Positions 39,043-58,792 of a DNA stretch of 64,000 bases are shown here, piece by piece. The position numbers were made by a program, and so were the translations under genes. How positions within the stretch are numbered: the stretch's first letter is position 1; the number at the start of each line of letters is the position of its first letter. The notes beneath the pieces are model-generated. The model saw only the letters and a program-made list of their open reading frames with translations, had not been told where the DNA came from and did no database searches. The stretch is taken from NCBI GenBank assembly GCA_006384855.1, contig VCJN01003090.1:1-64000 (forward strand), in the 5' to 3' direction. Origin of the DNA: Tetraselmis striata (lineage: Eukaryota > Chlorophyta > Chlorodendrophyceae > Chlorodendrales > Chlorodendraceae).

Positions 39043-39309
39043 GATATTATATATTTAAGGCTGTGTATATGCTATGTATTTGCTATGTATTTGTTATGTA
39101 TAATAAACATTAAATATTAAAAATAAAAATTAAACAATTTGCTACAATACATAATGGTTATACATTATACATTATGTGCACTCACAAGGTGTTATGTGCA
39201 AACACGTGATGTTATGTGCGGTCACGAGATTATGTGTGCGGTCACAAGATTCTACATTCATATGAAGCGAAGACGATTACATCGGAGACAAATACTCCGG
39301 AAACTGTTT

Positions 39310-39657
39310 CTATGCTTCGCTATTAGCAGTTTCCTGCTCCACGCGCGCGCGCTTTGCGGCCACTTTGTCGTCGTCTATGTCCACCGTCAAGATGTTGATC
39401 TTCTTCTCCACCTTGTATTGGTCGATATCATCGATGAGCGACTGGTCAAGCATCCATCGTTTTGGGTGCGCCATGGACAGTTGCACACCTTCGTCTTCAA
39501 TTTAGTCAATCTTGTTCTCGATCATGTACTCCTTCATAGTCCGATCAAGGCGGTTCATCGTGTTGCACATCTTCTTCCACTCGTTGAACCGCTCGACGTA
39601 TTGTGCAAGCTCGCGCTGAATCTTCGGGGGAAGCTCATCGGCCTTCGTGCACGCCAT
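39310..39657 (-). pseudogene. Left TIR gene, nonsense-mutated
   Basis: Same length and nearly the same sequence as the intact 115-codon gene at 58179-58526. Codon 52, TAC (Tyr) in the right copy, is TAA here (minus strand, 39504-39502). The rest of the frame is preserved, so a single substitution inactivated it. Confidence 0.9.
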
Positions 39658-40235
39658 GGCGATTGGTCAAAAGCGGTGGGGGTATTGTAGCGAGTGTTTG
39701 GTGTGGGCGTGGTGGAAATGATGCTGCACCTACCTCCCCGCGCGGCTTTTATGGAAGTGCGCGGTCTTTGGTCAATGTGGAAAAAACCAGTGGCAAAGAC
39801 CAGTGGCACGCCGGGTGAGTTGCCACTGGCGCCACTGCAGCTGGGTTATCCAGCTGAACGCGGGTGCCCCCGAGCGGCTTTCCAGCAGTGGCAAAGTGGC
39901 ATTTTTTAGTTGCATTTCAGATTCCAAGAGGGGTTGTACCGGCGGAGGAACATGGTCCTCCCGTAGGATTCTTTTTCTTCTAAAAATGCCACTATGCCAC
40001 TACTTTTTTAAACTATCATTTTCCATGTGGATTCCTACGTGTTTCCGGGGAGTCCGTGGTCTTTCCAGCAGTGGCAAAACGCCACTGGATGCCACTGGTA
40101 GTGGCAAAATGATGCCACGCATCCCGCCGCTCTTTCGCCGCGCCGCCGGGCTCGCTCGGTCCTTGAGCCGAAGAGCGCGTGACTCGGTGCAGTACTTAGG
40201 CAGAACACACCGAGACTCTCAAACGCACCGCGCGA

Positions 40236-40525
40236 AGTCCGTTGTCGCCGCGAAGTCCATTCTCGCCGCGAAGTCCATTCTCGCCGCGAAGTCCACTGTC
40301 GCCGCGAAGTCCATTCTCGCCGCGAAGTCCATTGTCGCCGCGAAGTCCATTCTCGCCGCGAAGTCCATTCTCGCCGCGAAGTCCATTCTCGCCGCGAAGT
40401 CCGTTGTCGCCGCGAAGTCCGTTGTCGCCGCGAAGTCCGTTGTCGCCGCGAAGTCCATTCTCGCCGCGAAGTCCATTCTCGCCGCAAAGTCCATCCTCGC
40501 CGCGAAGTCCATCCTCGCCGCTAAC
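40236..40525 (+). repeat. 18-bp tandem repeat in the left TIR (16 copies)
   Basis: The unit CGCGAAGTCCATTCTCGC has two recurring variants (CCATT/CCGTT and CTCG/GTCG). Because 18 is a multiple of 3, several frames stay open on both strands (AAKSIL, SPRSPF and MDFAAR repeats). These are not genes. Confidence 0.95.
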
Positions 40526-40854
40526 TAGGAACTCATCCTTTCGAATCCGCCCTCGAACGGCGAATAGCCCTCCTCATAGCGCTTGATCTCGACGAGTGCC
40601 GGCGCCGGCTTTGGGATGCGCCCCTTTTTCAGGAGCGCCTTGAATTCTTTGAATCGGATCCCGCGCTCGTAGAGGACAAGTATATCGATTACATCATCGC
40701 CGAAGCCCGGATACTTCGCGCGAAAGTACTTGCGATCAAATTTCGGCTGATACCTATAGTCGAAGCTAGCGATATCCAGGAACGCTTGGCTGATATAACA
40801 GCGTTCCGCGGGGGTCATCGCCCGCCCGAGGGACGTTTCGCGAGTGCTACTCAT
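40525..40854 (-). CDS. PLV protein of 109 aa, unknown function
   Basis: Starts SSTRETSLGRAMTPAERC and has a mixed helical composition (FDIASFDYRYQPKFDRKYF-like aromatic stretch, then KEFKALLKKGRIPKPAP). No family recognised. Its ATG overlaps the stop of the upstream Zn-ribbon gene by 8 nt, so the two are probably co-transcribed. The last 19 codons lie in the TIR, and a copy of them is present at the inner end of the right TIR, where the rest of the gene is missing. Confidence 0.6.
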   Translation of the reverse strand: MSSTRETSLGRAMTPAERCYISQAFLDIASFDYRYQPKFDRKYFRAKYPGFGDDVIDILVLYERGIRFKEFKALLKKGRIPKPAPALVEIKRYEEGYSPFEGGFERMSS

Positions 40855-41275
40855 GTTTTACGATAATGAAGGGAAAATCGTTTGCATCAGATGGGCGAAC
40901 GTCGCTGCTGCTCGCTTGGTGCTTCTTTCGCTCCTTGTTGCACGGAAAACACTCAAAGTAGTCCGCGCGGATCTTCGCGCCGCACTTGCACGACTTTGTC
41001 TTCTCGGCTTCGCGCTTGCGATAACACGGGAAGCACATCGCGTAGTCGCCTTTGACCTCGCGCTTGCGACAGACTTGGCACCTCGCGGGCAGTTGATCTA
41101 CCTCGCGAAGAATATCCTCGCGGCACCGACGACAGTAGCTGGACGAGTAGATTGTCACTCGAACGCAGCGCGGACACAACCGAGCGCGGCGCGACGACGC
41201 GGAGCCCGCGGAGGCCGCGGTGTCGTCGGCGCCGGAATCGCTGAAGGAGACGGTGACTGAGACGGACGATGGCAT
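40847..41275 (-). CDS. PLV multi-zinc-ribbon protein, 142 aa
   Basis: ATG 41275 is chosen because upstream codons are unlike protein and a Ser-rich N-terminus (PSSVSVTVSFSDSG) follows. Three Cys pairs in series follow: CPRC..CRRC, CQVC..CFPC and CKCG..CFPC. Each looks like half of a treble-clef or zinc-ribbon finger, separated by basic linkers. This suggests nucleic-acid binding, perhaps as a viral transcription or replication factor (inference). It overlaps the next gene on the same strand by 8 nt and is divergent from the gene at 41369. Confidence 0.7.
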   Translation of the reverse strand: MPSSVSVTVSFSDSGADDTAASAGSASSRRARLCPRCVRVTIYSSSYCRRCREDILREVDQLPARCQVCRKREVKGDYAMCFPCYRKREAEKTKSCKCGAKIRADYFECFPCNKERKKHQASSSDVRPSDANDFPFIIVKHE

Positions 41276-41368
41276 TCTGCAGGGCTCTCGCCGCGCTCCG
41301 CGGTCGCTCCACTTAAGTGTGTCATGCAAGTGCAGATAAAAAACGGACGCTAGATAAAAGAAAACGTC

Positions 41369-41632: not shown

Positions 41633-41665
41633 AGAATTTCTCTGATACCTTCTAACACCCCAATC

Positions 41666-44188
41666 ATGCCTCGCTCAAAGATTGCCTCAAAGTACTTTTA
41701 CGAGCCAATGCCGAAAGAGGCATTGCGGTACATCATCAAACATGTGCTTCCAACGCTAGAGTTGAACCCCAACGATGAAAGACACGTCAACCTTCCCGGC
41801 AGGCTGGAGGAGATGCTTTCGCTTGTTAACGAAGACGGCATGCTGAAAGTATGTTATGATAGGAAGCTAAAGGACACTAATGAAAACAAATACGGCCGCG
41901 AGTATTCCGTTCTGAAGCTGTCAAACCAGGGCCTTCACCGACCACTGCGCAATGCCATCGCAGTTTATTGGATGGCCAAGACCGGTATCAAATTGGTCGA
42001 CATTGATATCGTCAACTGCCACCCCGAGTTATTCCTGCAACTGCTCAAGAAACACAAGGTTTCTTGCAAGTACGACAAGATTGAGGAGTACGTGGCCAAC
42101 CGTGACTCCATCCGCGAGGACGTCCAAACCGCTTACAAGTGTGACAGGGACACGGCAAAATACCTTTTGCTTGCCCTCATCAATTTCGGGTCTCTGAAAG
42201 GTTGGTCAATCAAGTACAACGTGAAGATCCCTAAAACGGCCTTGTCGTCCCAAGTTCACCTTTTCTTGAAGGAGTACGAGAAACAGTTCAGGGCGTGCGT
42301 CAAGGAACTCATGACTCAGATGCGTTCGGTTGTTGATATTGCAAAGCACAACGTGAACCCCGAAAAGGCTATGACCGACAAACTTGCTCTCGAGAAAAAG
42401 TTCGTTCACACCCTATTGACCATTGCGGAAGATGAGGTGTTGCACGCCGCCATGGCATGCATCCTAAAGATGAATCAGGGTGCCAAGATCGTGTCAAAGA
42501 TGTTCGACGGTTGCATCGTCCAGTACAACGGCGATGTTGATTGCAACGAAATCGTTGCCCACGTCTTGAAGGCCACGGGGTTTCTTCTCAGGTTTGAGGT
42601 GAAGCCCTTCAAAACGGACATTGTCATTCCGACCGACCTTCCGCCTATAGAGTACGACGTGGATAAGTGCGAGGGAGTGACCGAGACGGAGCGACTGATC
42701 GTGAAGGCTGTCACATCGCCAACACATTTCGACTACGCCGTATTGTTTCACGCTCTATGGCCAGACTCGTTCGCCTATACCGACGCTCACTCAAAGTGGT
42801 ACCACTTCAATGCGCCGAGGTGGAGGTGCGTCATGAACAACACGGGGTGGATTATCAAAATGATCGACTTCCAGCTCCGACCGCTGATTTTGAGCTTCGT
42901 CAAACGAGTCTATGAAGAACTCCTTGATATCCCGATTTTGCTTGAGAAGAAGTCCAACGAAGTGATCAATGGCATTACCACAACCCTTGGCTCCATCACT
43001 TTCAAGACAAATGTCGTTTTCCAGCTGCAAAGCATGTACCAAGTGGACGACCCTTACGCATGGATCTCGTTGTTGGACTCCAACCCGGACATCCTCGGTC
43101 TCGACGACTGCGTCTACGATGTTGCCGCTCGCAAGTACCGCGACGGGCGTCCGGAAGACATGATCTCCATGTCGTGCGGTCACAAGCGCCAAGACGTTGA
43201 GTTCTTTGACGGTGATGTTGCCGATCACATCTACGACGCCGTCACCGGCATGTTTGATGACGAAGAGAAGTTTTCCTACATTTGGGGCCGGCTGTCTTCG
43301 TGCGTGAGCGGCCGTCGTCCATGTGATGCTTTTGACATTTGGACAGGGAAGGGCCGCAACGGCAAAGGCGTGATAAAGGCGCTGATGTCCTCCGCATATG
43401 GTGTGGGAGACTCCGGGTACTATTACGAGCCCGATGCGCTCGTGTTCACGAGTGCGAGGCAGAATTCTAGCGGGCCGTGTCCGGAGCTGGCGAAGTTCAA
43501 AGGCAAGAGGTGTTGCATGTCGTCCGAAGGCAACACGGGCGACGCCCTCCAGTTGGCGCTGTTGAAGAAGCTCACCGGCGGCGACACCATACAAGCCCGG
43601 GACCTGCACAAGAGCTTCATCGATGTCGTACCTACCTTCAACCTGTTTCTCTTGTTCAACGTCATCCCGAGTGTCAATGACACAAGTAACGCCACAAAGC
43701 GCCGTCTTCGCGTCAACGATTTCCCATTTGAGTACTTCGAGAATCCCGACCCCGAGGACAAGCGTCAGAAGCGGATGGTCGAGGATTTGCGTGACACGTT
43801 TGCTTCTAAGCGCTACGGAGCCACCGCGCTTGGTGTCATGATTAAGTGGTTCGACGAGCATGGTCACCTCATATCTCCTCCCAAATGCATCGTTGACGCT
43901 TCAAGCAATTTCATGATGATCAACGACCCGCTCAGCGAGTTCATGCTTTCGCACTTTGAGAAGGGCGGCGTCAAGGACTTTGTGTTGATCAAGGATGTGA
44001 TGAATGAGCTCAAGAACGACTCCACGTACCGCTCCCAACTTGGCATTCGCAAGAACGCCGATCTCATTCAGAACCTCAGAAACAAGGGGTTCGACATCCC
44101 CTACTCCAAGAGGTACGGCTACGACTACATCAAGGGGCTCAAGACCAAGGAGCCCGACGAGGAGGATATGGAGTGTGGCGACGAGTAG
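41666..44188 (+). CDS. PLV replication protein: TV-Pol-like polymerase plus SF3 (D5-like) helicase, 840 aa
   Basis: Residues about 105-300 carry motifs reminiscent of the divergent family-A TV-Pol domain of virophages and PLVs: LVDIDIVNCHP (about 110-118, motif A-like), K-x5-ALINFG (about 165-174, motif B-like) and MFDGCI (about 277-282, motif C-like). The C-terminal half is a superfamily 3 helicase. It has Walker A GKGRNGKGV (about 560-568), SSEG then KKLTGGDTIQARDL, and a sensor-type LFNVIPSVND. D5-type proteins load and unwind the origin in protein-primed or rolling replication. The frame is intact and full length. It ends 7 bp before the GTGGC-rich unit. Confidence 0.85.
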   Translation: MPRSKIASKYFYEPMPKEALRYIIKHVLPTLELNPNDERHVNLPGRLEEMLSLVNEDGMLKVCYDRKLKDTNENKYGREYSVLKLSNQGLHRPLRNAIAVYWMAKTGIKLVDIDIVNCHPELFLQLLKKHKVSCKYDKIEEYVANRDSIREDVQTAYKCDRDTAKYLLLALINFGSLKGWSIKYNVKIPKTALSSQVHLFLKEYEKQFRACVKELMTQMRSVVDIAKHNVNPEKAMTDKLALEKKFVHTLLTIAEDEVLHAAMACILKMNQGAKIVSKMFDGCIVQYNGDVDCNEIVAHVLKATGFLLRFEVKPFKTDIVIPTDLPPIEYDVDKCEGVTETERLIVKAVTSPTHFDYAVLFHALWPDSFAYTDAHSKWYHFNAPRWRCVMNNTGWIIKMIDFQLRPLILSFVKRVYEELLDIPILLEKKSNEVINGITTTLGSITFKTNVVFQLQSMYQVDDPYAWISLLDSNPDILGLDDCVYDVAARKYRDGRPEDMISMSCGHKRQDVEFFDGDVADHIYDAVTGMFDDEEKFSYIWGRLSSCVSGRRPCDAFDIWTGKGRNGKGVIKALMSSAYGVGDSGYYYEPDALVFTSARQNSSGPCPELAKFKGKRCCMSSEGNTGDALQLALLKKLTGGDTIQARDLHKSFIDVVPTFNLFLLFNVIPSVNDTSNATKRRLRVNDFPFEYFENPDPEDKRQKRMVEDLRDTFASKRYGATALGVMIKWFDEHGHLISPPKCIVDASSNFMMINDPLSEFMLSHFEKGGVKDFVLIKDVMNELKNDSTYRSQLGIRKNADLIQNLRNKGFDIPYSKRYGYDYIKGLKTKEPDEEDMECGDE

Positions 44189-44194
44189 TGTTCT

Positions 44195-44528
44195 AGTGGC
44201 AGATTTTGCCACTACCAGTGGCATCTAGTGGCGTTTTGCCACTGCTGGAAAGACCACGGACCCCCCGGAAACACGTAGGAATCCACATAGAATATATCCG
44301 TTAAAAAACGTAGTGGCATAGTGGCATTTTTAGAAGAAAAAGAATCCTACGGGAGGACCATGTTCCTCCGCCGGTACAACCCCTCTTGGAATCTGAAATG
44401 CAACTAAAAAATGCCACTATGCCACTGCTGGAAAGCCGCTCGGGGGCACCCGCGTTCAGCTGGATAACCCAGCTGCAGTGGCGCCAGTGGCAACTCACTC
44501 GCCGTGCCACTGGATTTCGCCACTGGTT
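44195..44528. repeat. GTGGC-rich palindromic unit, internal copy
   Basis: This 334-bp unit is also found in both TIRs (39785-40111 and 57726-58052) and nowhere else in the window. It contains about a dozen GCCACT/AGTGGC hexamers, and an inner inverted repeat in which AGTGGCATAGTGGCATTTTT pairs with AAAAAATGCCACTATGCCAC across about 100 bp. The internal copy differs from the TIR copies at a number of positions. It could be a MITE-like hitchhiker or a replication/packaging element. Confidence 0.85.
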
Positions 44529-44712
44529 ATTTAGTATGGATCGCACGAGCGAGACCGGGAGCTCTTCGCTCAATTTTCATCGAGGTTGGGAGCGATAGAA
44601 AGCTCGATGGGCGAATTATTGCCGCGCCGCCCTTTGGCACGGTCGCCCGGGCCGTTGCTAGAGCCATCCCGCCAGTCTTCTTCGCATTATTCTTCGCACG
44701 AGGTTTAGCCAT
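44527..44712 (-). CDS. PLV small basic protein, 61 aa (tentative)
   Basis: It begins AKPRAKNNAKKTGG and is Lys/Arg/Ala-rich throughout, like small virion core or histone-like peptides. The start is 22 bp from the divergent penton-like gene. Its 3' end touches the edge of the repeat unit. The frame is short, so confidence is limited. Confidence 0.4.
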   Translation of the reverse strand: MAKPRAKNNAKKTGGMALATARATVPKGGAAIIRPSSFLSLPTSMKIERRAPGLARAIHTK

Positions 44713-44734
44713 TTTAATATGAAAGGAACATAAA

Positions 44735-45584
44735 ATGACGAGCTTTCAGTGTCACCTCGACAGCAAATTCGCGGACATGCACTTCTCCACAAACGCATGC
44801 GTGTTCTACCTCGCGGACCCGCTAACCCTCCCTTCGCAAGATTACGAATGGCTTGTAGCGGTGCCGCACGCGACAATCCCGCTTTCGCATTGGGTTATCG
44901 ATGAATCGAACAACCTGCTCGAGCTAGTATACTCCGACGAGTCACGATACATATCGCTACCTTTAGGCAATCGAAGCGTGGACGTCAACGACATGCTTTT
45001 TGCACGGATACACCGCCGCCTACGACGAAGCGATAAACCGTAACGTATTCAGCTCCGAGGTGCTTGGCGAAAGCCTCGCGATCGGAGAAATGAGTACGTG
45101 TGGAAGGTTGTTGGGCGTGGAAGCGGGAGACGCGGCGGTGGACGGCGTGCTCATCCCGCCGCGCGGCGTCGACCTCGCGGGTACCTCGTCGATATTCATC
45201 CGAAGCAACCTTTCGACTCGTAATCGCGATCCGGTGTCGAAGGCGACAAGCGATATTCTCGCCAAAGTGCACGTTTCGCAGAACTTTAACGAGATCGAGT
45301 ATCACTCGTCTTCGCTCAAGTTCCCGATAGCTGATCGAAACGTGTCGCTCATCATCATCTATCTCACCGACGACTTCCAGCGACACATGGATTTCCACGG
45401 CGCGGACTTCTCGCTAACCCTTGAGTTTACGCTTCGTCGAAAAGAAGTTATCTCGCACACCGTAGATTATCGATTAACTTGTGTTATGACTAACGATGTT
45501 AGCCCGGCGAAAACAAACTCTGAGGCCGCGAAGCCTTCCGATGCGTCGGGGGATCCAAGTGGACCTAAGCGAAGTGAACGATAG
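44735..45584 (+). pseudogene. PLV penton-like/minor capsid protein with a +1 frameshift
   Basis: Two frames form one protein. The first (44735-45043) contains a WLVAVPHATIPLSHW segment typical of PLV and NCLDV minor structural proteins. The second (from about 45000 to 45584) has FNEIEYHSSSLKFPIADRN and a C-terminal DFHGADFSLTLEFTLR beta-strand pair of jelly-roll type. They join at a run of five T (44997-45001), where one T too many throws the frame. This may be a real mutation, a homopolymer read error or a programmed +1 shift. An ATAAAATG context precedes the start. Confidence 0.6.
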
Positions 45585-48351
45585 TATCGCGGAGCTCGAA
45601 GCGAAACACGACATCGATACCGAGAATTTGGAGGCCGGTCTCGGGGAAACACAATCAAATGTGGAAGCCCTCTCCAACGCCGCCGCCGCCGCCGCGGATG
45701 CGCTATCGTCGCTCGAGGACGATATCGTCACTCTATCGAACTTCGCTCACGAGTGTTGCGAAACCGCCGAATCGAACATCGCGGCCCTTAGCGAAGAGAT
45801 CGCTGCGATCGATACCTCGTCGTATATCTCTCAAAGCGAGAAGTCGCGATTTATCGTGGACCTCGTCGAGCCTTTCGCGATAGGAGCGCACGCGGACAAC
45901 GCCGGCAGGATTGACGTTTTCGGGACACTTCGCAGCCCTCTCGGGCCTCTCTTCGATCTCGGCGAGCCGACGAACCCTTGGCGCGAAGTGTACGCCGAGG
46001 GGCTAACTCTTTCGGACACCTCAAATCTAAAATTTACACACTTTCAAGGCGCGGAAGGCGATTTCAACCTCGACGACGTTATCGAATACGCGGTATCCCT
46101 CGTCGCGACTCCCGATCACCCAACCACGGTTTCGCTTGAGCGCATCAACGAAGTCAGTTTTAACCACGGAATTGTCGTCAAGGGCGATCTGATACCGCAC
46201 GAAGAAAACGCCGGGTTCCCCCCACTATCGCGCGTGGGGAATCTGACTTATCCGTTCTTGGAGGGCCACTTCACAAACCTCTTCGCGGGCAACATCTACG
46301 GCCTCGACGAAGGTGGTTCGACACGCCGTGTCCTCCTCGAAGGGGACGCCGCGGCGACCCCTCAGTGGATCACGGAGCTTCAAAGTGATGTAAACATTTC
46401 CGGCTTCAATCTCGATGTCGACTTCACGGGCCCGCAAGGGCCGGCTGGACCCCAAGGCGAACAAGGGCCGGCGGGCGAAGCCGGAGCCGTTGGCGCGAAC
46501 TCCACTTTCCCGGGCCCGGCTGGCCCCACCGGACCGCCCGGGCCCGCCGGCCCGCCCGGAGCCGACTCGACTGTGCCTGGCCCCGCCGGATCGCCCGGAT
46601 CGCCCGGGCCCGCCGGCCCGCCCGGAGCCGACTCGACCGTGCCCGGCCCCGCCGGACCGCCCGGATCGCCCGGCCCCGAAGGTCCGCCCGGAGCTGACTC
46701 GACCGCGCCCGGCCCCGAAGGTCCCACCGGACCGCCCGGGCCCGCCGGCCCGCCCGGAGCCGACTCGACCGTGCCCGGCCCCGAAGGCCCCACCGGACCG
46801 GCCGGACCCGCCGGACCGGCCGGAGCCGACTCGACCGTGCCCGGCCCCGAAGGTCCGCCTGGGCCTAGCGGTCCAAAAGGAGATAAGGGGGACCCCGGAG
46901 ACCCGGCGCCAGTGGGCGAATACGCCCCGATAGCACACACACACCCGTACTTACCGCTGAGCGGAGGTGAGATAGGATCAGGGGGTCAAATCAGAGTTGT
47001 ACAGAGCACCGTCGAAACGGATAACACGTTTCCCGGAGATTTCGAATTGGTGAGTCTGAGAGTTGCCGACAGCAGATATGCGAGGAAAACCCAAACGTCG
47101 AGCGCCGATTGGGCCTCGCTGTCCGGCCGCCCGCTTTGGACCGACAAGTTCATATACACGCAAAATGTCGGCCCCCAAATGTACCCAACAGCCTCCGAGA
47201 ATTACGACATCGTCGCTATCGACAGCATAACGCCTACCACCAACGACGTGTATAACTTGGGCCACGATGGACTGCGATGGAAATTTGTGTACGCCATGAG
47301 CGGCCGGTTTGCGACCGATATCCATGTTGGCGAAATCACCAACCATGCAAAATTCACGTACAGCACGGCCTCGAACCTCATGACGTTGAGCCGCCCCTTG
47401 CTCCTTCCTCGGTCGCCCGAGCTGAGTAACGAGGCCGCGACCAAGGGCTATGTCGACACGGTTGTAACCAACGTAGTACCCCCCACCGCCAATTGGACAA
47501 CGCTCAGCGGGCGACCGCCGTGGACCGATGGGTTTGCCACGCTCGACGCATACACGACCGTTTTATCGAAGCATCTCATTCCACCCGCCGACAACGATGG
47601 ATACGTCGGGGTGTCATAACTGAGATTTGCCCAAGTTAACGCCGTAGAAGGTGCGTTTGACACGGTCGTCGCCGATACAATCACCGGGCTGTCTCCTCCC
47701 GTACAAGGGCAGGATGCGGCTTCCAAATCCTATGTCGACCAAACGGTTGCGAGCGTCTCCGCGGTATCGTGGAACAATGTTACCGATAAGCCCGTTTGGG
47801 TCGGTAAGTTTTCACAATCGACAAGCGGCAACCCCGCGCTCGAGACAACGTCTCTAAAAATGGGCGGGAACGTGATCTACGACTTGGCCGAGCCGACAAA
47901 TTCGCACCACGCCGCCACGAAGAACTACGTGGACTCTTTCAAAGGCAGCGTAACCGCGTTTAGCGAATGGAAGAGACAAGCAATAGCCGATCGGTTTTGC
48001 AAAGTCTTGAATTCATCTTCGGGGATTTCTCACACATTCAAGTGTGAACTTTTACACTTACAGCCGTATACCGACGCGACCCCGAGCGGTCACATGGAAA
48101 TACGCATAAAATCTAAGGCCACTGGAGGAATTGTGTACGTCAGGTATTGGGCTCTTACTTATCTCGGTGTCGTATCGGGGCCATTCCATGGTTTTGAATC
48201 AACGGAACAAACGGTCGACTTGCAGAGCGGTTTACTCGCGACTGTCACAGTTTACGCGAATGCGACGGTTCAAGGACACACCGAAGACGTCGTGATAGGG
48301 ACAACCACGTTCACCACGGCTGCTAATACCTCTAGCGAGTACTTTCTCTAG
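45541..48351 (+). pseudogene. PLV collagen-like fibre protein, split by one in-frame stop
   Basis: The frame is open from 45496 (ATG candidates 45496 and 45541) to 48351 except for TAA at 47617-47619. In order: an acidic heptad-like coiled coil (about 45570-45850), a beta-rich region, about 53 Gly-X-Y triplets (46426-46905, mostly GPAGPPG and GADSTVPGP), and three C-terminal repeats built on W..LSGRP.WTD.F followed by AATK.YVD. The last of these repeats lies after the stop, so the stop truncates a repeat module, not a natural end. Trimeric collagen-like fibres serve in host attachment. The first 44 nt overlap the preceding gene. Confidence 0.75.
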
Positions 48352-50767: not shown

Positions 50768-51691
50768 CTATGCCGTATCGGAGATGGTCAGCGAGATGCT
50801 TACTTGCGACTCGGCATCCGTGCCGGCCACGAGACAAAACGAGTCGACGGTCGGGGCTGTGGAGTCCGCGTTGGTGGATATGGGCCCAAAGCCGTCCACG
50901 CTCGTCTCGTTCCCGGCTTGGTCCTTCGCCATGATCCACGTGTAGTAGATGGTGTCGGGCGTCAACCCCATGTAGGAGTGCGAAGTCGTGCCGCCGGGGA
51001 ACGCATCGCCGATGGTCTTGATGAGCGCCGGCCCGGGGTTGGTGTCCTGTGTGTCATTTAGTAGCACGTAGATGGTCTGAACGGCGTCGTTGTCCGTCAC
51101 GTTGAAGGTGACGTTGAGAACCGTGGTTGGAGGCGTGCCGCGCGACACGCTTCGGGCCGTGATGACCGGGGGCGTGTTGTCCTCCGTGGTGTACACGCCA
51201 AGCGGGGTGATGGACGAGTTTGCGTTGTCATCGATCAACTCCACCCAAAAGTAGCGAGCGGCATTTGGCGCCCCGATATCGTACTCCCACGTGGGACTGG
51301 AGCCGCTGATGCCGCTGGTGATGTCCGCGGTGGAGGTGCCCGGGATGGTGTTGGTGGAGTTTACGTACAGCAGCGCCGAGGATATCGTCATTTCGGGTTT
51401 GATTAACATGGAGATTAAAGCTTGTAGCTCCGCGTCGGTGCCCGCCCCCACGCCCGCGAAGTCTATCCACGAGTTTTCTAGCAGCCGTCGCCCCAACGAG
51501 GACCCCCCCGCGTCGCGATGGATAGCGCTAACGTTTTCGAGGAACACCTCGATCGGGGCGCGGCGGCGGATTGGGCTTTGCCCTCGCCCCATGTGAGGGA
51601 AGCGGGTGCTCAGCAAGGCGCCGTCAAAGGCCGCTTGGACGGCGCTCTTGTCCGAGGAGCCGATAGAGCCGACGAATGCGCGATGGGACAT
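50768..51691 (-). CDS. PLV surface protein with fibronectin III/Ig-like domains, 307 aa
   Basis: Residues about 1-90 form a helical stalk-like region. At least two beta-sandwich repeats follow, with the signatures W-E-Y..ARYFWVELID, TVLNVTFNVTDND and YMGLTPDTIYYTWIMAKDQAGNE. The last is a classic fibronectin III end (L-x-P-x-T-x-Y-x-W..A-x-D-x-A-G-N-E). The frame stops within a third repeat (STAPTVDSFCLVAGTDAES). The ATG follows the TAA of the penton gene with zero spacing (GTAAATG). Probable role: fibre or host recognition. A related domain is found in the gene at 56762. Confidence 0.7.
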   Translation of the reverse strand: MSHRAFVGSIGSSDKSAVQAAFDGALLSTRFPHMGRGQSPIRRRAPIEVFLENVSAIHRDAGGSSLGRRLLENSWIDFAGVGAGTDAELQALISMLIKPEMTISSALLYVNSTNTIPGTSTADITSGISGSSPTWEYDIGAPNAARYFWVELIDDNANSSITPLGVYTTEDNTPPVITARSVSRGTPPTTVLNVTFNVTDNDAVQTIYVLLNDTQDTNPGPALIKTIGDAFPGGTTSHSYMGLTPDTIYYTWIMAKDQAGNETSVDGFGPISTNADSTAPTVDSFCLVAGTDAESQVSISLTISDTA

Positions 51692-52690
51692 TTACTTGGT
51701 TCGGTAGAAAACTAACGACATCACATAGCCCGGCTGAAACTCGAGCGGATCAAGCAGAGCGAGGCTGACGGCGTCTCGCAATTGCAGATGAAGCTCCGTG
51801 AGCGAGTCGATGCTAACGCGAAGCTCGTGCCCCGCGACGTCCCGGCTGCCCGGCTTTATGGAGTATCGCTGCCCGTACATGGACTCTTCGCCCGTTCTGT
51901 ACGATTTGCCGAGGTGGCCTAGAATGTGGCGATCGTCGGAGTCGACGAGTGTGGGACAAGCGAGCACGACGGAATGCGGCTGATCGGCGGGATCCTTTGT
52001 GCATAGGAGGGGCGTGTAAAACTCTAGCGCCACCATCCACTTGCCCTCCGAGGTGTCCACCGAACGGCTCGTGTTCAGCATCACCGGTATGCGACAATCC
52101 ACGATAGACCCTCGCCCCTGCTCCGACGATACCCACGCTCGGAAGAAATCGTATGCAAACGGTTGCATGAGCAGGCACTTGCACGGCTCCCAAAACACAA
52201 GCTGGAACGCCCACGCCTCCAAGTCGTCGCTTTCACTGACGAGGGAGAAGTCGTCGCCGGCCCCGAACTCAGAGGCGCATCGGCGCAGCCGGAAGCGCAT
52301 GCTCCCGAGGCGCTTCACAAAGTCAAAGTCCACCTCGACGCCGATGTGCTTGCGACGCACGTACGGTACGTCGTGTGCGAGGCCGTACACGCCCGCGGTG
52401 GCGTAATTCTGCAAGAGGGTTAGCGCGCAGCTCGAGTTCCCGCTCCAGCTTTCATACGAATTAGCCGCTCGCAGGTCCGGCGCCTCGAGAAGGAGGCCCG
52501 ACGAGTTTACGGGGTTGGCCACGTAGCCGTCCCCCTCGCTCGTGTATCTGACGACATTGCAGAATTCCACGGCGCACATCACCCGCCTCGAGTCGAATCG
52601 CGCGAACTCCTTCGAGGTGTCTACGACGAAGTCCCCGCGGTGGCCGGATGTGCGCTGCTCAGAGCTAACGAAGATGCGGTGGACCGTCAT
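51692..52690 (-). CDS. Putative PLV penton/minor capsid protein, 332 aa
   Basis: The position next to the major capsid gene and the beta-rich composition fit a penton. The protein seems internally duplicated. RIFVSSEQRTSGHRGDFVVD..MCAVEFCNVV near the N-terminus is echoed by AWVSSEQGRGSIVDCRIPV..WMVALEFYTPL around residues 185-240. The end LRVSIDSLTELHLQLRDA..GYVMSLVFYRTK is the terminal strand pair commonly seen in PLV pentons. It is intact, 44 nt downstream of the capsid gene stop on the same strand. Assignment is by pattern and context. Confidence 0.6.
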   Translation of the reverse strand: MTVHRIFVSSEQRTSGHRGDFVVDTSKEFARFDSRRVMCAVEFCNVVRYTSEGDGYVANPVNSSGLLLEAPDLRAANSYESWSGNSSCALTLLQNYATAGVYGLAHDVPYVRRKHIGVEVDFDFVKRLGSMRFRLRRCASEFGAGDDFSLVSESDDLEAWAFQLVFWEPCKCLLMQPFAYDFFRAWVSSEQGRGSIVDCRIPVMLNTSRSVDTSEGKWMVALEFYTPLLCTKDPADQPHSVVLACPTLVDSDDRHILGHLGKSYRTGEESMYGQRYSIKPGSRDVAGHELRVSIDSLTELHLQLRDAVSLALLDPLEFQPGYVMSLVFYRTK

Positions 52691-52734
52691 CCGCCTGCGA
52701 GTTTACTAGAAGTGGGCAAAAGATTTCGCCCCGA

Positions 52735-53979
52735 TCAAAATGCAGAAGTTGCGACTCCCGCCTCGATGATCAATACCGCGTCGAAATGCGCCCACGTGCT
52801 GATTTGGTAAGCGGTGCTTCCGGGGGTCACGGTTCCCAACAAGTAGCAGTTGGTGTTGAGGGTGTTCTTGCCGCTCTCGGTCAGCGTGCTCTTGTGGCTG
52901 AGCACCTCGAGGTTCTGGCCTATGGCGAACGTGCCGGATGCACTCCCACCGCTGTTATTTTTCCACGAAGTCAGATTTATGAGCGACGTGTTTTGCGTGC
53001 TCCCGAACGTGTGCATGGCTTTCATCAGCTCAGCAAAGGACTCGACTTCTTCGCGCACGGGTGTCTGCGGAATGTTTTCGCCGGACACCGAGTAATACCA
53101 ATTCTTGAGCCCACACGTGGTCCGAGTTGAAACCGAATTGGACGCGGCTAGAGTGAGATCGGCATGCTTGCGGAATATGGTGTAAAGCGTTTTGAGGGAC
53201 GTTTTAATCAACAAGCTTAACCGCGCGGGGATAAGCTTGTTGATTTGCCCCTCATTGGCCTGGATAGAGTTGGTGTAGTTGGCGAAATACTCGTACGAGA
53301 TGACGTACCGCGGGTTGGCCTGCTGAATCATGCGATCAACCTCGCTAGTAACCTCCACAAACTCGAGCTGCAGTTCGACGTTGCCGATCTCCCAATCGGG
53401 AGCCGTGCCGACCACGGCGGCGTTGGTGGCGGCGAGAGTGAGTTCGAGGCGCAGATCACCGCCGGTCATTGCGCCGGTTGGCAGGTACTTCGACTGAAGG
53501 CCGCCAATGATGCCGGACATGATCGGGATGCAAAAATAGGCAGTCGTTCCCGCGGCAATCTCAACGCCCTCGCGGTAATGGCTGTCTTCGTCCTCATTGG
53601 AGCCGTACAGAATGGAGCCGCCTCCCAAAAGCGCTTCATCCGAGGACTGAATGTCGAACATGAGATGGTACAACGCATTGTACTCGTGGATCTGCTCAAG
53701 GAGATTCGCGCCGTGGTAGAGCGACAGAGACTGGATAAACGACGAAGCGGTGTAATCGGGCTGCAAGTCATTGGCGGCGTGCTTGTTCTTCACGGAAAAC
53801 CGCAGGTAGGACATGCGGGTGTTGAGGTAGTGCCCGCGGCGGCCGCACGGGATGTTGATGAGGATGGTCTGTTGACCCCCGAACGTGGTGCCATTGTAGG
53901 CGGGCACGGTCTGCCGGTGGGTAGTGCCGGCGATAGAGGCGGGCTTGGGCTTGAAGACAAGGGAATCGCTGACTGACCT
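52735..53979 (-). pseudogene. PLV major capsid protein (double jelly-roll), start codon apparently lost
   Basis: The capsid features typical of PLVs are present: an N-terminal VPAYNGTTFGGQQTILINIP block, FIQSLSLYHGANLLEQI, LYHLMFDIQSS, LQLEFVEVTSEVDRMIQ, and the C-terminal WAHFDAVLIIEAG. The conserved N-terminus (SLVFKPKPASIAGTTHRQT) lies upstream of the first possible start (GTG 53907), in the same open frame but without any ATG. At the expected position the codon is AGG (minus 53979-53977) preceded by TTTAAA. With T for G it would match the TAAAATG start context of other genes here. The rest of the frame (414 codons) is intact. Confidence 0.85.
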
Positions 53980-54018
53980 TTTAAATAATGCTGAGAACTT
54001 TATTTTAGCGAGGCGGGG

Positions 54019-54357
54019 CTAGCGCCGCTCTAATCCGCTACGATTCGAGCCGCTTTGGTACGCCGCTTTGATGCTGTGCATGCCCCCCCTGACTTGACCG
54101 TAAGCCGCTTTTGCTTGGCCAAAGTCCACGCCCCCGCCGGAGAGGGCCTTCTTGCCGACGTCGCCGAGCACGCCAATGCCTTGCGCCGCCGCCCCGGCCG
54201 CCGCAAACCCGGCTCCGACTGTCGGGCTGAGCACCGAGATCGCGGGCGCGAGAGTCATGAGCCCGCTGCCCACCTTGTGCCCCAAGTAGGAGGCCGCGCC
54301 GGCGACTTTGCTCCCAAAGGCTTTGAAAGTGTGTCCAAGCTTGCCAATGAACGTCAT
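54019..54357 (-). CDS. PLV Gly/Ala-rich hydrophobic virion-type protein, 112 aa
   Basis: It begins TFIGKLGHTFKAFGSKVAG. One or two hydrophobic segments (LMTLAPAISVLSPTVGAGFA, AAAGAAAQGIGVLGDVG) could insert in a membrane, followed by a basic tail. Small proteins of this type sit beside the capsid gene in many PLVs and virophages, with a proposed membrane or internal capsid role. The start is preceded by GTAAATACAG. Confidence 0.55.
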   Translation of the reverse strand: MTFIGKLGHTFKAFGSKVAGAASYLGHKVGSGLMTLAPAISVLSPTVGAGFAAAGAAAQGIGVLGDVGKKALSGGGVDFGQAKAAYGQVRGGMHSIKAAYQSGSNRSGLERR

Positions 54358-54398
54358 CTGTATTTACGATCATTGCAGAAATTTACGTGCGGGCAAAA

Positions 54399-55583
54399 TT
54401 ATCGTCGCTGCCTTCGCGGCCGGGGCACGATGTTTGGCATTATCGGCGGAAGGGCCGCCCTGCTTGTCGATGCGCCGTCATTCCGCCCAGAATTGAAATT
54501 GGCTTGAGATTCGTACGGCACCATTTCTCCGTCGCCTGATGCGAAGCCTCTAACCGGGCGTTTCCCCTTTCTGATATCCTCCTTCTTGTTCCCAAGAGCG
54601 ATGCTCTCTCGCAAAGCCAGCGAGGCCGCACTTGACGCAGTAGCCGTACGGGGGTTTCGCTTTGTCCCGGGCATGTTTCTGCGCCCCCGGGTCATTGCCT
54701 GGAAGGAATATCTGTCCAACTCCGGTACGTCTTGAGGACGAGGAAACACGCCGACCGGGTTGAAATGCGTTTGAGGTCCCTCGTGACCGGGTCCAAGGGC
54801 AGGCAGATCTCGAAACATGTCTACCTCGGGTACCCTGCGACCAAACACCACTTCGGGAAAAACCTCTTCAATTGTTTCAATTCGCGACCTACGGCCTTGC
54901 CTTCCGCCGTGGGCTACGCCCGATCCGTCGAATTGACGAACCCGTTCAGCAACGCTCGTGCCCCCGGCTCGCGGCCTCGCTTCGATCGCAACGCCATGCT
55001 GGTGCCCCGCCTCGACGCGCGCCGGCTCGTACAACATCGGAACGGCCTGGCTCACGGGGGCGGGGGCAGCCGGGCGCACGGGGGCGGATTGGGCTACGCC
55101 CTCCCCCCCTGCGGGGGACGTCGACGCTTCTGATATTGTGGCGACAGCGGTGGGTGGAATCGACACCGCGGCGAGCCCCTTTACCTCCGTCATCCTATCC
55201 CTTACCGGAGGTGCATCCGTTTGAGTTGAACCGGCCCTCATGCTTGGCGGCCTCGTGCCCCCGCCCCCAAAGTCGCTTTGAATGAATGACCCGTCCGGCA
55301 TGTGATTCGCGCGAATGGGTTGTCCCATCGAGTAAGTGGCGAAGCTGTGATGCATCGCGCCCCCCGCGCCGCTCCCTCCCCCCGCGCCGCCGCCGCCGCC
55401 CGCACCGCCGCCTCCCCCGGGTCCGCCTCGGCCGCCCGACACGCGCACGGTGACATTCTGAGTCACGTTCTGGTTCTTCCTGCCGCCGGCCTTGGATCCC
55501 TGCTTGCGTTTACCTCCCCGCGCCGCCGCCTTCTTCTTCGGCTCCGCTTTGCGATTGCTGGATTTCGTTGTCTTCCTCGGCAT
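54399..55583 (-). CDS. PLV Gly-rich basic protein, 394 aa
   Basis: The first 45 residues are Lys/Arg-rich (PRKTTKSSNRKAEPKKKAAA), then NQNVTQNVTVRV and a long Gly tract. The middle and C-terminus are disordered, Pro/Arg-rich and end PRPRRQRR. This layout recurs in PLV genomes next to the ATPase and suggests a DNA-condensing or core virion protein (inference). It starts in a TTAAATG context and overlaps the end of the ATPase gene by 74 nt in another frame. A short palindrome lies in frame near 55096. Confidence 0.6.
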   Translation of the reverse strand: MPRKTTKSSNRKAEPKKKAAARGGKRKQGSKAGGRKNQNVTQNVTVRVSGGRGGPGGGGGAGGGGGAGGGSGAGGAMHHSFATYSMGQPIRANHMPDGSFIQSDFGGGGTRPPSMRAGSTQTDAPPVRDRMTEVKGLAAVSIPPTAVATISEASTSPAGGEGVAQSAPVRPAAPAPVSQAVPMLYEPARVEAGHQHGVAIEARPRAGGTSVAERVRQFDGSGVAHGGRQGRRSRIETIEEVFPEVVFGRRVPEVDMFRDLPALGPGHEGPQTHFNPVGVFPRPQDVPELDRYSFQAMTRGRRNMPGTKRNPRTATASSAASLALRESIALGNKKEDIRKGKRPVRGFASGDGEMVPYESQANFNSGRNDGASTSRAALPPIMPNIVPRPRRQRR

Positions 55584-56277
55584 TTAAGTTAATACGATCA
55601 AATTTCTTGTAGAATAAGCTTTTCTCGACATCGCAGAACAGGAAGTCGTACCTTTCCCTGAACACAAAGCGCAGGAGGCTGTCCGCGGTGTGAGGGTCGA
55701 GGAATATCAGCTCCTTGAATATGGCCTCGTACTCGCGCTTGTTACGGGGTTTCAGCATGGCAAAGTGCGAGATGGTTTTTCGCACGGGCAGCGGGATGGC
55801 GTTAAAGCTCTGTACGAGCATCAATATCGAAGTGCGAAGGTGGCGACGATTGTAGATTATCAGCTTCATGAGCCGCTGCACGTCCCTATCTTTGAGCGCC
55901 GCCGTCTGGTCGTCTATCACGAGGAGCGAGAACTCTTCCTCGTCCGAAGCCGTCTTCAGTTTCTCGTGAATGCCATCGAGGGTGGACCAATCCAGCTCGT
56001 CGTAGCACTTGTCGTGCTTTTTGAATATTTTGACATCGAGCGAGGCAAGCGAATGGGGCGGCATGACGAGGTGCACGTGCTTGAACGCCTGGAAGTACAT
56101 CTGCGGGCTCCGCAGCATGTTGACCATCAACGACATCTTCCCGCTCCCCGCGCTTCCGATGAGCGTCATGAAGAACGACTTGTCGGGCAAGGGGCTCTGG
56201 ATTTGAGGGTGGATCTTAACGTCGCACTTGAACTTTGGGGGCTTCATTACAATCTTCGACCGTTTGTCGATGTGCAT
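55510..56277 (-). CDS. PLV FtsK/HerA-type genome-packaging ATPase, 255 aa, altered Walker A
   Basis: Walker A reads IGSAGSGKMSLMVNML (about residues 39-54), with Met where Thr or Ser should coordinate Mg-ATP. The codon is ATG, one C-to-T change from ACG, at a CpG. Walker B is LLVIDDQ (about 117-123). An arginine-rich sensor region follows (YNRRHLRTSILMLVQSF), with the typical PLV ending RFVFRERYDFLFCDVEKSLFY. The protein pumps DNA into capsids in this virus group. Length is normal. With the Walker A change the enzyme is probably inactive or impaired. Confidence 0.85.
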   Translation of the reverse strand: MHIDKRSKIVMKPPKFKCDVKIHPQIQSPLPDKSFFMTLIGSAGSGKMSLMVNMLRSPQMYFQAFKHVHLVMPPHSLASLDVKIFKKHDKCYDELDWSTLDGIHEKLKTASDEEEFSLLVIDDQTAALKDRDVQRLMKLIIYNRRHLRTSILMLVQSFNAIPLPVRKTISHFAMLKPRNKREYEAIFKELIFLDPHTADSLLRFVFRERYDFLFCDVEKSLFYKKFDRINLNAEEDNEIQQSQSGAEEEGGGAGR

Positions 56278-56294
56278 GCCTTATTTTAGTTTAA

Positions 56295-56735
56295 TCAAAC
56301 GATTATCACCGAGTCGTAAAAGTCAGCTCGCTCTTCATACCGCGGCGCCGGCTCGGTGGGCTCCTCCTGCCGCTTCGGCTTGGTCGCCCTAGGCGGCGCC
56401 CGCGGCTTCCGCTTGCGGGGCGGCTCGGGCTCGGGCTCCCCCGCGGGGGGGGAGGGCTTCTTCTTCCACGCCCCGCTCTTGAAAAACTCGGAATCGATAA
56501 ACTCGTCTATTGCGCTTAGGCCAACCTGAGGCGGTCGAGAAGCCCTAGCTGCCACCTGCTGGTCTCCCTCGCCTGCTGAAGCTCCGCCTTTGCTTCCTGG
56601 AGCTCCGCCACTCTTTCTCGGAGCTCTGCGCTTTGCGACAACATGCTTTTGCGGCATTTCCAGACCGTCGTCAGATAGCTCGCTATCCCGATCGCTTGGA
56701 GGGTCTTGACAAGCCAACTCATCATCATATTGCAT
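56295..56735 (-). CDS. PLV Pro/Lys-rich protein, 146 aa, unknown
   Basis: Acidic start (QYDDELACQDPPSDRD), basic Pro-rich middle and end (EPPRKRKPRAPPRATKPKRQ), and one ordered-looking segment, LSAIDEFIDSEFFKSGAWKKK. The SPPAGEPEPEPP linker is encoded by the same short palindrome found in the integrase gene. It precedes the ATPase on the same strand and is divergent from the gene at 56762. Function unknown. Confidence 0.5.
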   Translation of the reverse strand: MQYDDELACQDPPSDRDSELSDDGLEMPQKHVVAKRRAPRKSGGAPGSKGGASAGEGDQQVAARASRPPQVGLSAIDEFIDSEFFKSGAWKKKPSPPAGEPEPEPPRKRKPRAPPRATKPKRQEEPTEPAPRYEERADFYDSVIIV

Positions 56736-56761
56736 CGATATTTGATCTCACGAAACATAAA

Positions 56762-57415
56762 ATGGCGTCCGGGATCGGCGAAGTGCGGCTCTACCACAAC
56801 ACGGCCAACACCATCCCCGTGGGGGTATACGACGATATCACCTCGCAATTCACCGTCGGGTCGACGAGCGACGCCGCCAACCTCGTGAAGGGCGGTCTCA
56901 GCCCCGGGACGCAATATTGGTTCTGGGTGGAGGTTATCGATGTCGCTGGGAACGAGTCCGCCATCCTGCCGCTCGGGAGCATAACGACGGCGGTTGCAAC
57001 GCCAACTGAGTGGGTTTTTGAAGTATCGGTTAAACAAAGCGCGGGATTTGCGCAGTGCATGGAGATAGAGCAAACCAACCCCGCGGTCCCGTGGACGATT
57101 ACCTCAACCGATATTACGAGCATGGCAACGCCCGGCGATGGCGGGGACCAAACCGTCGGGCAAGCAAAGGCTCTGTTGACAGACGGCATCAACAACAATA
57201 CGGGGGCAAGGGCGTATTGGCAAGCAACCAGCGGTTTAATGCTCTTTAAATTGACGGGCGTGGGCGGTGATAGCGCTGCGACTTTTAGGATGCATTGGAT
57301 CTCGCCCGCTCACACGCCTGGCCTACGGATTTCGCGCGACGGCGTCGAGATACTCAACCAAGGAGCTAACGGGGGGAGCTCGGCGTCTGGCATCAACGTT
57401 GTGAATTATCTATGA
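56762..57415 (+). CDS. PLV fibronectin-like surface protein, 217 aa
   Basis: ATG 56762 is in an ATAAAATG context. Residues 1-80 form a fibronectin III-like sandwich ending LSPGTQYWFWVEVIDVAGNE, closely paralleling the gene at 50768. Residues 85-217 form a beta-rich second domain (WVFEVSVKQSAGFAQCMEI..LRISRDGVEILNQG) of jelly-roll or carbohydrate-binding style. It stands alone at the right end next to the TIR. Probable attachment protein. Confidence 0.65.
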   Translation: MASGIGEVRLYHNTANTIPVGVYDDITSQFTVGSTSDAANLVKGGLSPGTQYWFWVEVIDVAGNESAILPLGSITTAVATPTEWVFEVSVKQSAGFAQCMEIEQTNPAVPWTITSTDITSMATPGDGGDQTVGQAKALLTDGINNNTGARAYWQATSGLMLFKLTGVGGDSAATFRMHWISPAHTPGLRISRDGVEILNQGANGGSSASGINVVNYL

Positions 57416-57448
57416 ATCACTCCAGCCCTCACAGCGCACGTTGACAAA

Positions 57449-58792
57449 CGCTATGAGGAGGGCTATTCGCCGTTTGAGGGCGGATTCCAAACGATGAGTT
57501 CCTAGTTAGCGGCGAGAATGGACTTCGCGGCAAGAATGGACTTCGCGGCGACAATGGACTTCGCGCGGTGCGTTTGAGAGTCTCGCGCGGTGCGTTTGAG
57601 AGTCTCGGTGCGTTTGAGAGTCTCGGTGTGTTCTGCCTAAGTACTGCACCGAGTCACGCGCTCTTCGGCTCAAGGACCGAGCGAGCCCGGCGGCGCGGCG
57701 AAAGAGCGGCGGGATGCGTGGCATCATTTTGCCACTACCAGTGGCATCCAGTGGCGTTTTGCCACTGCTGGAAAGACCACGGACTCCCCGGAAACACGTA
57801 GGAATCCACATGGAAAATGATAGTTTAAAAAAGTAGTGGCATAGTGGCATTTTTAGAAGAAAAAGAATCCTACGGGAGGACCATGTTCCTCCGCCGGTAC
57901 AACCCCTCTTGGAATCTGAAATGCAACTAAAAAATGCCACTTTGCCACTGCTGGAAAGCCGCTCGGGGGCACCCGCGTTCAGCTGGATAACCTAGCTGCA
58001 GTGGCGCCAGTGGCAACTCACCCGGCGTGCCACTGGTCTTTGCCACTGGTTTTTTCCACATTGACCAAAGACCGCGCACTTCCATAAAAGCCGCGCGGGG
58101 AGGTAGGTGCAGCATCATTTCCACCACGCCCACACCAAACACTCGCTACAATACCCCCACCGCTTTTGACCAATCGCCATGGCGTGCACGAAGGCCGATG
58201 AGCTTCCCCCGAAGATTCAGCGCGAGCTTGCACAATACGTCGAGCGGTTCAACGAGTGGAAGAAGATGTGCAACACGATGAACCGCCTTGATCGGACTAT
58301 GAAGGAGTACATGATCGAGAACAAGATTGACTACATTGAAGACGAAGGTGTGCAACTGTCCATGGCGCACCCAAAACGATGGATGCTTGACCAGTCGCTC
58401 ATCGATGATATCGACCAATACAAGGTGGAGAAGAAGATCAACATCTTGACGGTGGACATAGACGACGACAAAGTGGCCGCAAAGCGCGCGCGCGTGGAGC
58501 AGGAAACTGCTTATAGCGAAGCATAGAAACAGTTTCCGGAGTATTTGTCTCCGATGTAATCGTCTTCGCTTCATATGAATGTAGAATCTTGTGACCGCAC
58601 ACATAATCTCGTGACCGCACATAACATCACGTGTTTGCACATAACACCTTGTGAGTGCACATAATGTATAATGTATAACCATTATGTATTGTAGCAAATT
58701 GTTTAATTTTCATTTTTAATATTTAATGTTTATTATACATAACAAATACATAGCAAATACATAGCATATACACAGCCTTAAATATATAATAT
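57449..58792. repeat. Right terminal inverted repeat of the PLV
   Basis: About 200 bp shorter than the left TIR because the 18-bp array has only about three units. It instead has three copies of GGTGCGTTTGAGAGTCTC (57578-57630), where the left TIR has one. It includes the intact TIR gene, the GTGGC-rich unit at 57726-58052 and, at the inner edge, a 3' scrap of the 109-codon gene (RYEEGYSPFEGGF then the stop). Confidence 0.92.
58179..58526 (+). CDS. TIR-encoded helical protein, 115 aa (intact copy)
   Basis: It begins ACTKADELPPKIQRELAQYV and is almost entirely helical with a likely coiled coil (residues 15-60), followed by GVQLSMAHPKRWMLDQSLID and a Lys-rich C-terminus. No family known to me. 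A gene in the TIR is duplicated and close to the genome ends, so a role in terminal replication or early regulation is possible. The left copy has a stop at codon 52, which leaves this as the only functional version. Confidence 0.65.
   Translation: MACTKADELPPKIQRELAQYVERFNEWKKMCNTMNRLDRTMKEYMIENKIDYIEDEGVQLSMAHPKRWMLDQSLIDDIDQYKVEKKINILTVDIDDDKVAAKRARVEQETAYSEA

Follow-up and report, generated by a model that had tools for sequence, protein, structure and literature searches.

The window analysed here is a stretch of 64,000 nucleotides from the green alga Tetraselmis striata (GenBank assembly GCA_006384855.1, contig VCJN01003090.1, positions 1 to 64,000), and it holds an endogenous Polinton-like virus (PLV). 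In this element and its sister copies in the same genome, different replicase cassettes occupy one slot of a near-identical backbone, and each replicase is matched by a DNA segment of its own type. We think it probable that each replicase travels together with its cognate replication origin, the two forming a cassette or portable replicon; that the enzyme binds this DNA, that the segment works as an origin and how the events followed one another we infer from the comparison of sequences. New are the replicase-matched segments across sister copies; PLVs in Tetraselmis and their gene set were already known.

Six replicase types in one slot

The window corresponds to contig C2491 of a 224-Mb T. 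striata assembly (2903 contigs), and contigs with sister elements are likewise labelled by C-numbers. A single element of 19.8 kb (39035-58801) lies within host DNA, its length falling into the range of 14-40 kb typical of PLVs with TIRs (terminal inverted repeats). Compared with six sisters, identity was mostly 89-98% and stopped at 41,610-41,670; it resumed at 44,529-44,733 in the five sisters having the remaining part. The slot at 41.6-44.7 kb of the window holds the replicase, for which six different types were found across the elements:

Type A, window element: 840 aa, D5_N primase-helicase
Type B (origin-binding protein type 1, OBP-1), C864 and a 6.3-kb element on C2274: 1124 aa, match to Herpes_ori_bp (PF02399, 1.5e-9)
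Type C (TVpol-B), C454 and C2765: 833 aa, about 31% identical to type A
Type D, C1638, with a shortened form in C951: 818 aa
Type F, C299, with the same type in C1325
Type G (OBP-2), C908, where the gene is broken

The Herpes_ori_bp match of OBP-1 covers only a stretch of 147 aa, and a search of the PDB with the OBP replicase gave a single match that looks like chance.

Each type has its own segment at the element ends

Every replicase gene is followed, at the stop codon or close to it, by a segment of about 90-420 nt that recurs at an element end. In the window element there are three copies, one of them in each terminal inverted repeat (TIR):

39764..40127, plus strand: type-A segment of the left TIR, 364 nt, with 10 AGTGGCA/TGCCACT repeats
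57709..58072, minus strand: type-A segment of the right TIR
44196..44532, minus strand: third copy, inverted, starting 8 nt past the replicase stop, 94% identical to the TIR copies

Within the 64-kb window 30 of the 34 AGTGGCA motifs fall into these three segments (one starts 1 nt before), and no further type-A segment was found in a search of the whole assembly. As this search finds the 364-nt TIR segment in three places of the window element only, a host miniature inverted-repeat transposable element was rejected as its identity.

The other types have repeats of their own, namely AGTGGCAC in type C, ACTGGTACACA in type D and CAGAAACA in type F, and types B and G have palindromes. Relative to the replicase stop, and judged from one example each, the segment starts at +8 nt (A), +3 nt (B), -63 nt (D) and -21 nt (F), and at +89 nt for the best local match of type C. 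At the sister ends, the sequence that varies with type lies between the outer conserved end motif and an inner block of 150 nt (95-99% identical); the D copy is located just inside the right terminal block, not in the TIR proper.

When seven end segments were compared with six replicase-flanking segments (60 shuffles per cell, type D being represented by an end segment of C951 and a replicase segment of C1638), own-type pairs reached z-scores of 30-234. The highest score between different types was 10.6, for repeat types, which have a common layout. The E end segment, from the right end of C1638, is an exception; it reached z 27 against type G and was counted as G. Between segment and replicase the best match was that of the own type in six out of six cases. 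Furthermore, in types A, C, D and F the end copy and the replicase copy agree at 238 of 244 repeat positions versus 987 of 1128 other positions (p 2.9e-7). By type, the figures for repeat and other positions are 98.6 versus 94.0% (A), 95.9 versus 71.4% (C), 98.2 versus 92.2% (D) and 97.1 versus 92.3% (F).

Further elements and co-occurrence in the genome

Further elements were fetched after types A, B, C and D had been seen, and the expectation was not recorded in advance. All three of them fit the pairing: end and replicase segments match over 289 nt at 92.7% in C299, over 87 nt at 79% in C908 and over 281 nt at 92.2% in C1325, the last of which has the same replicase type as C299 and was compared at the opposite (right) end.

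Throughout the genome, a cognate copy away from the replicase was present on the same contig in 35 of 38 contigs, where 100,000 permutations gave a mean of 14.1 and a maximum of 26. Such a copy was taken as the end copy, directly in sequence for the fetched elements and otherwise by its position on the contig. The share was 14/14 for TVpol-B, 9/10 for OBP-1, 7/7 for OBP-2, 3/5 for the 818-aa type and 1/1 each for types A and F, type F being counted from the fetched elements, outside the genome-wide search. When the duplicate-locus contigs C217 and C2765 were removed and C1325 was added, 34 of 37 remained (permuted mean 12.5, maximum 24); without the seven discovery elements it was 28 of 31 (permuted mean 11.7, maximum 22). 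Behind the replicase, the B segment is found in all seven OBP-1 genes with a match reaching the C-terminus (C864, C2274, C1916, C2156, C1735, C225 and C1620) and the D segment in all five genes of the 818-aa type. The G segment has this position in C2798, C2549, C1219 and C101 according to the search and in C908 according to the alignment.

These counts depend on the following choices. For TVpol-B we left aside C560 and C88, two fragment contigs of 79-85% identity without a C segment among the matches listed; with them the count is 14/16. For OBP-2 the same holds for C175 (35%, no G segment among the matches listed) and C311 (36%, G segments present), the inclusive count being 8/9. The OBP-1 count excludes a second element on C1638 (49.7-52.8 kb) and a 70-aa piece on C2496, and more distant replicases, such as those of C1004, C803, C2652, C1291, C1435 and C2385, were left untyped. 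Scores in the genome searches were given to the top candidates only (for instance, the best 40 of 52 or the best 41 of 97), so that an absence counts for less than a presence.

Several observations weigh against a strict pairing of replicase and segment. Type A was seen as a single element, its replicase being apparently present in one copy. The D segment lies near an end in only three of the five contigs of the 818-aa type, is also located near the end of C864 and C1728, which bear other replicases, and is accompanied by a C segment in each of the five 818-type contigs. Ends with two segment types (G+B, C+D) are frequent, and the pooled p-value for repeat conservation is driven mostly by type C. 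All pairing data come from one assembly; a replicase-profile search of viral_contigs gave one distant contig without clear TIRs, which holds no information on pairing. The assembly contains duplicate or allelic contigs, such as C217 and C2156 with 2 mismatches in 3143 nt. Finally, C1735 and C2765 coincide in a single locus on the right (0 mismatches and 45 gaps over 2772 nt) and have different left halves, and are thus either two alleles or a wrong join. In view of this pair, some of the mixed elements may be chimeras of the assembly. Before read mapping, mixed elements are no evidence of exchange; matched elements are less affected.

A probable portable replicon and its alternatives

The following mechanism would account for the pairing. 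The replicase would bind its own repeats and melt the DNA by its helicase domain, and replication would start at the segment copies in both TIRs and behind the replicase gene, the copy in each TIR letting both ends serve as start sites. PLVs of this family would then exchange the cassette as a matched pair, the origin type at the ends being replaced along with the enzyme. The palindromes that accompany OBP-type replicases would suit an origin-binding helicase. Capsid-less elements that share these ends, such as the 6.3-kb one on C2274, would be replicons stripped to the replicase-origin core. For PLVs in general we lean, by a narrow balance, towards replicase-specific origins in both TIRs and evolution by cassette exchange, related proviruses thus representing several replicon types in the manner of plasmid incompatibility groups.

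Alternatively, the segments could be recombination scars, left behind when replicase genes moved by way of TIR pieces, and the copies would have no role in replication. The cassette borders are indeed at or near the segments (on the right side at 44529-44733), and ends with two segment types look like remnants of past exchanges. However, passive scars would not be expected to lie at or near the stop codon of unrelated replicases, to have repeats conserved more strongly than the spacers, or to match the replicase by type; we regard this explanation as unlikely. Still less likely, in our view, is that the segments are operators, bound by the replicase and controlling the expression of TIR gene and replicase instead of serving as origins. 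In the window element the start of the TIR gene lies some 100 nt outward of the segment, and the gene reads away from it (39657 versus 39764), as an operator would have it, but C-type ends keep the segment and show no match to the TIR gene, and the internal copy lies behind the replicase, not in front of it. Least credible is an apparent swapping by misjoined near-identical copies, for which C1735/C2765 and duplicates of one place such as C217/C2156 could be quoted: misjoining would destroy the match of enzyme and segment and not create one, the type-A segment was found in the window contig only, at both ends and inside, and the backbone sequence diverges by several percent between elements with different cassettes.

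Relation to known replication systems

We know of no established account of how PLVs with TVpol-type replicases start replication. Phage P4 has a replication region with an ori and crr layout. With TIGR01613, the primase model of the P4 family, the helicase half of the window replicase gives a match (3.2e-23) that stays below the curated cut-off, and the primase domain of P4 is of another type. The P4 alpha primase-helicase binds repeats at its origin (PMC4234260).

The crenarchaeal plasmid pRN1 likewise encodes a replicase with an SF3 helicase and has its origin directly downstream of that gene, from where it can be moved to another site (PMC4234260). The PLV cassettes share the helicase and the downstream location. 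The pRN1 origin, however, is one stem-loop of about 100 nt on a plasmid, whereas the PLV segments are palindromes or clusters of repeats and occupy as many as three positions of an element with TIRs; a scan of the segments for simple perfect hairpins found arms of at most 8 bp and no stem-loop of the pRN1 type. The OBP-type replicases of the sisters recall the herpesvirus origin-binding protein UL9 in that they match PF02399 and go with a palindromic segment, but the match is confined to the 147-aa stretch and the window element has a replicase of another kind.

Cryptophyte PLVs likewise have a PolA(TVpol)-S3H replicase (S3H, superfamily 3 helicase), a tyrosine recombinase (YREC) and collagen-like fibres, and polymerase replacement among them was read as modular evolution; the available part of that report makes no mention of a replicase-matched segment in the TIRs or behind the replicase (PMC12220804). 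Among titles and abstracts on PLV or virophage origins, iterons, replication modules and cognate origins, none reports such segments; Chase et al. 2022 may mention them.

If the segments are origins, PLVs could replace their replicases freely because the new enzyme brings its own start site, and this would explain the free replacement. The enzyme-site pairs would, furthermore, be a naturally occurring collection of partners, cognate and non-cognate, for in vitro tests. They would also offer a typing scheme for PLV elements, because the end sequence would tell the present or former replicase of an element.

Ends and gene content of the window element

An earlier note on this DNA had recognised the element and set its limits at 39043 and 58792. 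The element was found again, and its true outer ends are 8-9 nt further out, at 39035 and 58801. Both ends have the following features:

39035..40230, plus strand: left TIR, 1196 nt; an A/T-alternating stretch and conserved end motif GGCTGTGTATATGC form its start
57606..58801, minus strand: right TIR, 1196 nt, 5 mismatches when aligned with the left TIR
39310..39657, minus strand: left copy of a 115-aa TIR gene, interrupted by a stop codon
58179..58526, plus strand: right copy of the TIR gene, frame open
40231..40524, plus strand: 18-bp tandem repeat array at the inner edge of the left TIR, limits set by eye; a short version adjoins the right TIR

The assembly contains 36 occurrences of the conserved end motif and none of the reversed control. 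A/T-alternating runs measure at least 14 nt in 19 of 29 distinct ends, 5 nt of the run coming from the anchor. No target-site duplication was seen at the window ends 39035/58801 or at the 29 distinct ends of sister loci. Ends in A/T-alternating runs without target-site duplication suggest a TA-rich sequence, belonging either to the target or to the element terminus. The precise mechanism of PLV integration is stated to be unknown (PMC12721341). In the adjoining host DNA, at 58864-59422, there are three diverged direct repeats (78-nt match, spacing 233-248).

Between the TIRs the following genes were annotated:

40525..40854, minus strand: 109-aa conserved protein, also present in the capsid-less 6.3-kb element
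40847..41275, minus strand: 142-aa cysteine-rich protein, zinc-ribbon-like by eye, also present in the 6.3-kb element
41666..44188, plus strand: replicase type A, 840 aa, C-terminal half a D5_N/P4-type primase-helicase
44735..45584, plus strand: conserved gene, role unassigned, perhaps vertex or minor capsid protein; frame broken here, 287 aa in intact sisters
45496..47619, plus strand: collagen-repeat fibre protein, C-terminal part variable (collagen profile 3.5e-14)
47860..48351, plus strand: 163-aa open reading frame (ORF) adjoining the fibre gene
48366..49706, minus strand: probable tyrosine recombinase/integrase, 446 aa, at motif level only
49798..50529, plus strand: cytosine-C5 DNA methyltransferase (PHROG 757, 7.8e-14; Pfam score just below cut-off)
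50768..51691, minus strand: surface protein by eye, first of two formerly called fibronectin-type, no Pfam match
51692..52690, minus strand: 332-aa conserved protein between surface protein and capsid gene
52735..53976, minus strand: major capsid protein (MCP) of double-jelly-roll fold, modelled over 52738-53814; the open frame extends to 53976
54019..54357, minus strand: 112-aa glycine/alanine-rich protein
54399..55583, minus strand: 394-aa low-complexity protein
55510..56277, minus strand: A32/FtsK-type packaging ATPase (Pox_A32, 3.4e-15)
56295..56735, minus strand: 146-aa protein
56762..57415, plus strand: surface protein by eye, the second formerly called fibronectin-type; N-terminal ~80 aa conserved, rest variable, no Pfam match

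Thus, one element does carry genes for replication, methylation, capsid, packaging and a collagen fibre inside TIRs, as the earlier note had it; profiles confirm this, and structure in the case of the capsid. Profile searches with the MCP gene gave no capsid match, nor did the minor capsid (penton) candidates 44735-45584 (including an intact sister) and 51692-52690 match a profile, so that of the three virion proteins proposed for such a check only the ATPase was recognised, by Pox_A32. The MCP was modelled over 359 aa (AlphaFold, 35 sequences) with a predicted local distance difference test (pLDDT) score of 84.5 and a predicted template-modelling (pTM) score of 0.86. By Foldseek this model matches the capsid proteins of PBCV-1 (3.7e-15), Sputnik (9.1e-11), Mavirus (2.8e-9) and PRD1 (3.2e-9) and also of an iridovirus, and on the strength of the model the gene product is a double-jelly-roll capsid protein.

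In the replicase, the helicase half matches D5_N (PF08706, 27.9 bits, cut-off 22.4), with DUF5906 below cut-off. A Pfam scan found no polymerase match in the N-terminal half, which may resemble TVpol, to judge by its motifs. The integrase assignment rests on motifs (R..RHS..H..Y), by which we presume a tyrosine recombinase, because there was no Pfam, PHROG, NCBIfam or relevant PDB match and the structure model (pLDDT 36.9) is too poor for use; of the earlier claim of a tyrosine integrase only this motif part stands. None of the 20 ORF translations scanned matches rve, the integrase of retroviral type, whose place is taken by a tyrosine recombinase in some PLVs. For the two supposed fibronectin-type surface proteins there was no Pfam match at 0.05, and the name is unconfirmed.

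Sister copies and classification

In the EukProt collection, proteins labelled Tetstr1, which we take as the JGI code for Tetraselmis striata, are 95% identical to the window capsid and 98% to the recombinase, in support of a PLV in an algal genome. A capsid search of the assembly gave 117 matching pieces, with at least 70% identity on 34 contigs, the window included, and 34-41% in several dozen places; the PLV family of the window element is widespread in this genome. At 34-41% identity to the window capsid there is a second, larger capsid family of PLVs in the same host, and at about 33% a third one (C1703, C2184, C316).

The window element is an endogenous PLV of a kind known in Tetraselmis. 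With the Tetraselmis PLVs TsV-N1 and TvV-S1 (TVS or TET group) and their integrated relatives it has the host genus, the capsid, the packaging ATPase and the occurrence of integrated copies in common. TsV-N1 is a 31-kb virus infecting T. striata (PMC4517135), in contrast to 19.8 kb here, and the likeness to it is one of description, the nearest capsids being Tetstr1 copies and metagenomic proteins. The earlier note had seen an unusual combination of genes and perhaps an undescribed lineage. TVpol-S3H replicases, tyrosine recombinases, Dcm-type methylases and collagen-like proteins have all been reported in PLVs (PMC4642659, PMC12220804, PMC12721341), and PLVs integrated in Tetraselmis were reported before (Chase 2022, as cited in PMC10120064). 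As PLVs are established in Tetraselmis and in protist genomes at large (PMC10120064, PMC7805220, PMC4642659), the gene set is ordinary for them. A distinct, undescribed lineage defined by its gene set is very improbable: capsid searches found no relative in viral_contigs and no match in the phage collection, as one might expect of such a lineage, but several other copies in this host have capsids with 95-98% identity to that of the window, metagenomic proteins reach 59-64%, and every recognised gene type has already been described in PLVs.

The earlier description as near-complete has to be qualified, since several genes are damaged in comparison with the sisters. The gene at 44735-45584 is out of frame in the window, is open at 287 aa in C1638, C951 and C2765, and has a broken or altered counterpart in C454 and C864 (intact in three of five sisters carrying it). 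The window MCP lacks an ATG at the start position used by sister copies, and the Walker-A motif of the ATPase is altered at a point where four of four sisters in which the motif was matched agree with one another. Because these genes are broken, the window copy looks unable to form virions, and by itself it is probably not able to form particles; open copies of the damaged genes are present elsewhere in the genome.

Outside the host, the window replicase has its nearest relatives in P0068 and P0069 (57-58%), and P0012 and P0009 are relatives of the capsid (63-64%). The longest contig is listed with the same length for P0068 and P0012 (36,459 nt), and again for P0069 and P0009 (18,390 nt), which suggests free PLVs bearing both replicase and capsid. 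For this capsid lineage, the type A replicase may represent the older partner.

The 287-aa gene adjoining the replicase exists in two forms that are about 49% identical, and the capsid gene in two forms that are about 80% identical. Together with the replicase types they occur in several combinations among the 24 contigs for which all three are known; thus C2716 has a 98% identical capsid, yet the 49% form of the neighbouring gene. In the fibre and surface proteins the N-terminal parts are kept and the sequence behind them is variable.

Some sister loci have features of their own. The 6.3-kb element at C2274:6468-12742 (L042) shares the ends and retains both TIR genes, two small genes and a replicase of OBP type, with no match to capsid, ATPase or recombinase, and appears to be a capsid-less relative or a deletion form. 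At C864:33592-40993 an insertion of about 7.4 kb splits the capsid gene of a sister element. Adjoining the 818-aa replicase, C1638:60261-60980 (L043) encodes a SET-domain protein (PF00856, 6.7e-8), possibly a histone methyltransferase in a PLV, and in C951 an ORF in the corresponding place (82199-82918, L054) starts with the same residues.

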